Of a DNA stretch of 64,000 bases, positions 43,775 to 45,227 are shown piece after piece. The notes under the pieces were generated by a model. It did not search any database. It was not told the origin of the DNA and was given only the letters and a program-made list of their open reading frames with translations. A program made the translations under genes and the position numbers. This DNA comes from Bradyrhizobium sp. RP6 (lineage in GTDB: Bacteria > Pseudomonadota > Alphaproteobacteria > Rhizobiales > Xanthobacteraceae): contig NZ_RQIT01000013.1 in the NCBI RefSeq assembly GCF_003837805.1, positions 124,001 to 188,000 on the forward strand, written 5' to 3'. Numbering within the stretch: the first letter of the stretch is position 1; each line of letters begins with the position of its first letter.

Positions 43775-43892
43775 CCGGGGGTCCTCATCAGGCTCGCTTG
43801 CATCCCAACATGCGGGAAATATCAGCCTCTTACGGCTAGCCGATGGACGTCTTGACGGAAAGGGCATTGCGGAATATGAGCATCACTTATCC

Positions 43893-43953
43893 CGTGGTGA
43901 TTTGAGCCGGCCGGCTTGCAGCCACGTTAAATAAATCGCTAAACAGGCCGGGG
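43893..43953 (+). ncRNA. SAM-II riboswitch aptamer before metZ
   Basis: The conserved metA/SAM-II pattern is present: stem CGTGG (43893-43897) with CCACG (43922-43926), the GTGATTTGAGCCGG segment, the TTGCAGCCACGTTAAATAAATCGCTAAA stretch in pieces, and the 3' pseudoknot strand AGGCCGGGG (43945-43953) facing the GCCGGCCGGC loop. Binding of S-adenosylmethionine closes the pseudoknot. It lies 87 bases before metZ, as in other alphaproteobacteria, and should switch the gene off when SAM is plentiful. Confidence 0.9.
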
Positions 43954-43964
43954 ACCTCTGTGAT

Positions 43965-43999
43965 CCCGGCCAGTGGAGATATCCAGGCCGGTTTTTTTT
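43965..43999 (+). terminator. SAM-responsive attenuator terminator of the metZ leader
   Basis: CCGGCC (43966-43971) pairs with GGCCGG (43986-43991) and TGGA (43974-43977) with TCCA (43982-43985), two-base bulge, then eight T (43992-43999). The 5' arm CCCGGCC can instead pair with GGCCGGGG at 43946-43953, the strand used by the SAM-II pseudoknot, so the terminator and the alternative stem exclude each other. Confidence 0.8.
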
Positions 44000-44039
44000 G
44001 TGACCGTTTGCGTGTCGAATGGTCATGTCGGAGGGTCCT

Positions 44040-45227
44040 ATGTCGAAGTCGCCTGCCAACTACCGCCCCGAAACCCGCCTGGTCCATTCCGGGACCCTGC
44101 GCTCGCAATATGGCGAGACGTCGGAGGCGCTGTTCCTCACCCAAGGCTACGTCTACAACAGCGCCGAGGAGTGCGAGGCGCGGTTCAAGGGCGAGGATCC
44201 CGGCTTCATCTATTCGCGCTACTCCAACCCCACCATCGCGATGTTCGAGCGCCGCATGATCGAGCTCGAAGGCGCCGAAGCCGCCCGCTCGGCGGCAACG
44301 GGCATGGCCGCGGTGACGACCGCGATCCTCGCACCGCTCAAGGCCGGCGACCACGTCGTGGCTTCGCGCGCCCTGTTCGGCTCGTGCCTCTACGTCATCC
44401 AGGACCTGTTGCCGCGCTACGGCATCGAGACCACGCTGGTCGACGGGCTCGATCTCGACCAGTGGCAGCGCGCTTTGAGGCCCAACACGAAGACGTTCTT
44501 CCTGGAGAGCCCGACCAATCCGACCCTCGACGTGCTCGACATTCCCGGCATCGCCGAGATCGCGCACAAGCGTGGCGCACGGCTCGTGGTCGACAATGTG
44601 TTCGCAACCCCGATCTGGCAGAGCCCGCTGGCGCTGGGTGCGGACGTCGTCGTCTATTCCGCGACCAAGCATATCGACGGCCAGGGCCGGTGCCTGGGCG
44701 GCATCATCCTGGCCTCGGAGGCCTTCATCGCCGAACACATTCACAATTTCATGCGCCAGACCGGCCCCTCGATCTCGCCGTTCAATGCCTGGGTGCTGCT
44801 CAAGGGCCTGGAGACGCTGGGCGTGCGCGTGCGCGCGCAGACCGATACCGCGGCGCGCATCGCCGACGTGCTGGCGAGCCATCCGAAGATCTCGCGGCTG
44901 GTCTATCCCGGCCGCGCCGATCATCCGCAGGCGGCGCTGGTGACAAAGCAGATGCGCGGCGGCTCGACGCTGGTCGGCTTCGAAGTCAAGGGCGGCAAGG
45001 CGGCGGCGTTCCGCGTGCTCAACGAATTGAAGCTTGCGAAGATCTCGAACAATCTCGGCGACGCCAAGAGCCTCGTCACACATCCGGCGACGACGACGCA
45101 TCAGCGTCTCAAGCCGGAGGATCGTGCCACGCTCGGCATCAGCGAGGGATTCATTCGCTTCTCCGCGGGACTCGAGCATGCGGATGATCTGATCGAGGAT
45201 CTGACCGCGGCGCTGGAGAAGGCGTGA
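44040..45227 (+). CDS. metZ: O-succinylhomoserine sulfhydrylase
   Basis: PLP enzyme that makes homocysteine from O-succinylhomoserine and sulfide, the direct sulfhydrylation route to methionine. 395 residues of the Cys/Met metabolism family: ETRLVHSGTLRSQYGETSEA at the start, the FIYSRYSNPT phosphate-contact motif, VDNVFATP and the Schiff-base Lys210 in YSATKHIDGQGR. The AGRCLGG stretch after it and the C-terminal SLVTHPATTTH are typical of MetZ rather than MetB or MetY. The ATG at 44040 (MSKSPANYRP) is chosen; 44025 is also possible. Expression should be governed by the SAM-II riboswitch and attenuator upstream. Confidence 0.95.
   Translation: MSKSPANYRPETRLVHSGTLRSQYGETSEALFLTQGYVYNSAEECEARFKGEDPGFIYSRYSNPTIAMFERRMIELEGAEAARSAATGMAAVTTAILAPLKAGDHVVASRALFGSCLYVIQDLLPRYGIETTLVDGLDLDQWQRALRPNTKTFFLESPTNPTLDVLDIPGIAEIAHKRGARLVVDNVFATPIWQSPLALGADVVVYSATKHIDGQGRCLGGIILASEAFIAEHIHNFMRQTGPSISPFNAWVLLKGLETLGVRVRAQTDTAARIADVLASHPKISRLVYPGRADHPQAALVTKQMRGGSTLVGFEVKGGKAAAFRVLNELKLAKISNNLGDAKSLVTHPATTTHQRLKPEDRATLGISEGFIRFSAGLEHADDLIEDLTAALEKA

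Follow-up and report, generated by a model that had tools for sequence, protein, structure and literature searches.

The window, a 64,000-nt stretch of Bradyrhizobium sp. RP6 DNA, carries metZ, encoding O-succinylhomoserine sulfhydrylase, at 44040-45227 (NF005696, 767 bits, cut-off 675; TIGR01325, 557.1 bits, cut-off 510.05). The metZ leader and all features described within it lie, like the gene, on the plus strand, and a divergently oriented dCTP deaminase gene (NF005734, 618.1 bits, cut-off 283) is found upstream of the leader. A SAM-II aptamer at 43884-43963 was identified with the Rfam covariance model RF00521 (87.4 bits, cut-off 36, E 2e-18), the match spanning the full model length of 1-79. 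In the Rfam alignment its P1 stem pairs 43893-43898 with 43921-43926, the stem and loop together covering 43893-43926. The score above the curated cut-off, the P1 and pseudoknot complementarity and the metZ gene downstream place the leader in the SAM-II family, as the preliminary description had proposed. The positions given there for the strands B, C and D and for the run of T residues also proved exact when read against the sequence.

Four short strands make up the rest of the structure. Strand A (CCGGCC, 43907-43912) lies in the P1 loop and is the 5′ partner of the P2 pseudoknot, in a register presumed from the sequence, the A:B duplex energy and a permutation test across families. Sequence, folding and family comparison assign strand B (GGCCGGGG, 43946-43953) as either the 3′ strand of P2 or the 5′ arm of an antiterminator, and strand C (CCCGGCC, 43965-43971) as either the 3′ arm of that antiterminator or the 5′ arm of a terminator whose 3′ arm is strand D (GGCCGG, 43986-43991). 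The terminator hairpin (43966-43991, -15.8 kcal/mol) consists of CCGGCC, a 2-nt bulge at 43972-43973, UGGA, a GAUA loop, UCCA and GGCCGG, and is followed directly by eight T at 43992-43999. Thus an intrinsic terminator stands between aptamer and gene, with B common to P2 and C common to the terminator, which is the arrangement of an attenuation platform. The hexamer of A is identical to 43966-43971 within C, and 43946-43951 within B is identical to D, so that A:D is a further possible pairing.

A generic consensus scan of the leader returned no promoter and no terminator. The terminator was probably missed because its stem contains the 2-nt bulge, and direct folding with ViennaRNA gave the hairpin despite this result. 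A promoter-like element, TTGACG (43852-43857) and TATGAG (43875-43880) with a 17-nt spacer, was read directly from the sequence and ends 12 nt upstream of P1; it rests on a looser TTGAC-N16-19-TA pattern, the stricter scan not flagging 43852-43880. The Shine-Dalgarno sequence GGAGGG (44030-44035), which would lie inside P2 in a SAM-II RNA acting by direct occlusion, was found outside both the aptamer and the terminator. Between terminator and Shine-Dalgarno sequence a further hairpin, GTGACC...GGTCAT (44000-44026), appeared in the fold ending at 44039, and similar GTGACC...GGTCAC pairs were seen by eye in metZ leaders of the same genus.

Folding of the leader

Calculated energies (ViennaRNA) were -16.0 kcal/mol for the B:C stretch, -16.8 for the C:D stretch and -14.4 for the A:B duplex. 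Since the first two are nearly equal, the choice between antiterminator and terminator would be a kinetic one. The stems are mutually exclusive as had been claimed, B pairing with A or C and C with B or D. When the region 43954-43991 was dinucleotide-shuffled 5000 times, with B and the T run held fixed, an equally stable terminator arose 29 times, an equally stable B:C stem four times, and the two jointly not once. The whole 107 nt was only moderately better folded than its shuffles (z -1.76, 10/200 as good).

To follow the chain as it grows, nested minimum-energy folds were calculated with the 3′ end moved in three-base steps. In early folds P1 was present with strand A folded back within its loop, and B:C was found with every 3′ end tested in the range 43970-43988. 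With the 3′ end at 43991, where D is complete, the minimum-energy fold was the C:D terminator; from 43994 to 43999 it was B:C enclosed by A:D, with the terminator absent, and at 44039 the terminator was again present. A:D also forms when the whole 107 nt is folded to its nested energy minimum. Because the minimum fold at 43994-43999 contains B:C and A:D rather than the terminator, SAM and kinetics must both have a part in the outcome. Masking A and B, to imitate the pseudoknot with SAM bound, gave a fold in which P1 coexists with the C:D terminator. The layout of an attenuation switch that had been described for this leader therefore stands as regards aptamer, gene, exclusive stems and terminator, all of which are present, and is incomplete in that its model omitted the A:D pairing.

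Recurrence and pairing conservation among relatives

SAM-II RNAs were detected in 60/60 sampled genomes of the genus and in 147/199 sampled genomes of the order, 145 of the latter above the cut-off. A total of 161 loci were compared, of which 125 precede metZ, 30 precede metX and six, excluded from the metZ and metX counts, precede neither. These were drawn from the matches listed for the 147 genomes of the order (109 loci, 29 + 80), from the genus (50 loci, 30 + 20) and from the window's own genome (two loci), and the sample leans toward strong matches. When one fixed rule was applied, 106/125 metZ and 24/30 metX loci had a terminator hairpin downstream of the aptamer, as against 21/125 and 4/30 for platforms shuffled once per locus, which agrees with the earlier assignment of C:D before eight T as a terminator; a stricter rule gave 100/125 and 23/30. 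Every locus of the same genus has the terminator (39/39 metZ, 16/16 metX), as does at least one metZ locus in 26 of the 33 families having metZ in the sample. The 19 of 125 metZ loci lacking it under the fixed rule belong to families f1 (in another genus), f3, f7, f12, f14, f19, f21, f26, f28, f31, f33, f34, f39 and f50. Inspection by eye reveals a hairpin preceding a run of T at some of these 19 (e.g. L081, L084 and L114) but none at others (L123, L139).

Among L001-L061 the 58 metZ loci were checked for the TTGAC-N16-19-TA pattern, and 56 have it upstream of the aptamer. A second SAM-II RNA in the window's genome (L002, 1501-1580) precedes a metX-like ORF and repeats the layout of B, C and D, with GGCCGGGG, CCCGGCC and GGCCGGG followed by five T. 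At four loci (L057, L058 and L065 of f50, and L062 of f24) SAM-II precedes an ORF starting MPIKIPDTLPAF, neither metZ nor metX, which is presumably metA; a terminator was looked for after SAM-II at these four and was not found.

Conservation of the pairings was assessed by permuting strands among families, with each of 26 families represented by a single metZ locus out of the 106 that bear a terminator. Cognate C:D pairs averaged -19.61 against -14.19 when permuted (sd 0.62), with 0/3000 permutations as good, and the C:D pairing is strongly supported across families by this comparison of strands. For A:B the values were -12.40 and -11.79 (sd 0.27; 30/3000), and for B:C -14.16 and -13.44 (sd 0.49; 243/3000). 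The energy test is thus only suggestive for B:C; its power is limited, since B varies little because it is held by A. No signal was obtained in this one-per-family permutation for B:D (1825/3000), A:C (634/3000) or A:D (816/3000). A permutation over 88 distinct strand sets placed cognate B:C at -15.44 against a mean of -14.23 (sd 0.24, lowest of 5000 -15.09); as close relatives and the two genes are pooled in it, the weaker one-per-family result is the one relied on here.

Column by column over the same 106 loci, with the first G of the core numbered 0, B:C shows several paired substitutions. At position 1, G-C is replaced by A-T in f7, f24 and f44, accounting for five of the eight loci with A there, the other three being A-A. 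At position 2, C-G becomes T-A in f16 and f40 (4/18 loci with T there), the remaining T loci comprising 12 T-G wobbles in six families and two unpaired, and at position 6 G-C becomes A-T in f40. Position 5 of B is unpaired with C in 27/105 loci scored, so the B:C helix is imperfectly kept in places.

A divergent SAM-II-like RNA

The window's genome holds a third, divergent SAM-II-like RNA (L176, at about 1486-1564, G000:C10:1942 onward), scoring 24.6 bits, below the cut-off of 36. A pattern search requiring GATTTG and CAGCTTGC listed 28 genomes of the genus, from which L185 was left out for two mismatches and a different ORF downstream; the RNA is accordingly counted in 27/195 genus genomes (L162-L189 minus L185), and it occurs also at L155 and L156. 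P1 is different and GCTAAAG is kept; both GCTAAAG and a GCGCC preceding GATTTG, neither of them required by the pattern, were seen by eye in 27/27. Downstream of each of the 27 lies an ORF with M(K/R)FAAIAD(V/I)HGN, or the same with V as first letter, and the product of the L176 ORF resembles YfcE-family phosphodiesterases at a score below the curated cut-off (44.4 vs 56.25). By eye, most of the 27 carry ATGCAG within the 3′ portion of the element and a complementary CTGCAT nearby, and a helix between the two could compete with the aptamer.

An element of similar kind occurs on the minus strand of L190, near 1500, in a different family of the order. The ORF that follows it has MetN, the ATPase of a methionine transporter, as the best match to its first 200 residues (230.2 bits over that fragment, cut-off 499.7), suggesting that the RNA may still sense a SAM-like ligand. 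With a narrower pattern the divergent element was found in 2/297 genomes of the order, those of L176 and L190. Judged from these sequence features, the phosphoesterase-leader RNA is possibly a variant riboswitch and may be more novel than the metZ leader; a literature search covering open-licence papers found no description of it.

Proposed control of metZ and comparison with known SAM-II systems

We propose, with a probability of about 0.85, that the metZ leader is a SAM-II riboswitch repressing its gene through transcription attenuation. Aptamer, metZ and competing pairings are observed directly, and so is the return of these features in related loci. The leader RNA very probably senses SAM; that SAM binds, that transcription terminates at this site and that control runs in the direction of repression we infer from the family. 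SAM would stabilise the A:B pseudoknot on P1, sequestering B and leaving C free to pair with D directly before eight U, whereupon RNA polymerase would stop and release an RNA of about 112-115 nt, as counted from a presumed start near 43885-43888 to 43999. Without SAM, A would tend to fold back inside the P1 hairpin and B would pair with C once C is transcribed, blocking the terminator; D may additionally pair with A. Repression of metZ by SAM is the expected biology.

The symmetry of the strands allows a more elaborate version, in which one hexamer and its complement are each used twice (A=C, B=D), so that without SAM C would be locked by B and D by A, and SAM would bring about a one-step swap to A:B and C:D. 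Such a four-strand exchange would, if true, give a sharper switch than an antiterminator of the usual kind. B:C and A:D do occur together in minimum-energy folds, yet A:D has no family-level support (816/3000), and we consider the exchange rather doubtful.

A riboswitch acting mainly on translation or mRNA stability, with the terminator constitutive or secondary, is an improbable account of this leader. A 2024 review lists SAM-II among the direct-occlusion, translational riboswitches (PMC10907184), and in Sinorhizobium meliloti high SAM stabilises the metZ and metA RNAs, promoter activity also falls, and the metA terminator is believed to act independently of SAM (PMC9373788). At the window locus, however, neither aptamer nor terminator contains the Shine-Dalgarno sequence, a point in favour of control at transcription rather than translation. 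Aptamer strand B is moreover complementary to a terminator arm, with compensatory changes in some families. Purely translational control was set aside on the ground of the free Shine-Dalgarno sequence; an added effect on RNA stability may exist beside attenuation. Far less credible still is the view that B and D are complementary to C as a side effect of a GC-rich GGCC repeat, with no designed switch behind it. GGCC is indeed palindromic, non-cognate B and C strands taken from different families also pair strongly (-13.44 kcal/mol), and the gain from cognate pairing is small (243/3000). Against this stand the failure of all 5000 shuffles to give both stems, the excess of terminators at real over shuffled metZ loci (106 vs 21 of 125) and the compensatory B:C changes across families.

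SAM-II is best known structurally as a small translational pseudoknot (PMC10907184), and a 2007 riboswitch survey by Barrick and Breaker, in which the general idea of such a switch also appears, states that the mechanism had not then been established by experiment (PMC2258182). In the Bradyrhizobiaceae, SAM_alpha has been reported before metXW in five genomes (PMC4239095). The direct-occlusion metX SAM-II shares the aptamer class of the window leader and, like it, uses the 3′ strand of P2 as the output strand; its ribosome-binding site lies inside P2, whereas the window leader has a free Shine-Dalgarno sequence, and its P2 would feed a terminator (PMC10907184). Closer precedents come from Corbino et al. 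(2005), who noted that many representatives of the metA element, or SAM-II, have putative terminators between P2 and the gene, with a promoter a few nucleotides before P1, and who proposed those bearing terminators as OFF switches (PMC1273637). In its passages on these elements that account is general, metZ being unnamed and the antiterminator not spelled out (PMC1273637).

The nearest counterpart is the metZ SAM-II of S. meliloti, for which Scheuer et al. (2022) proposed SAM-induced Rho-independent termination: under high SAM a terminated RNA of about 100 nt (RZ sRNA) goes up and metZ mRNA goes down (PMC9373788). As in the window leader, the aptamer stands before metZ and a terminator is predicted in the SAM-bound form, and the RNA of about 100 nt is similar to the 112-115 nt product expected here (PMC9373788). 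The genus differs from that of the window, and the strand model for S. meliloti is given in a supplementary figure (PMC9373788). The sections of that paper on S. meliloti metZ describe no termination assay with purified components (PMC9373788), and a literature search aimed at such assays showed none for a metZ SAM-II in the passages it covered. As a compact leader in which the P2 pseudoknot strand would drive the terminator, the window leader is suited to a direct test of transcription attenuation by SAM-II. A SAM-II termination OFF switch is already in print, in general form since 2005 and for S. meliloti metZ since 2022, and given these precedents the window leader belongs to a kind already known. 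It is a well-formed further example, to which the strand assignment in this genus, the recurrence and the A=C/B=D symmetry are modest additions.
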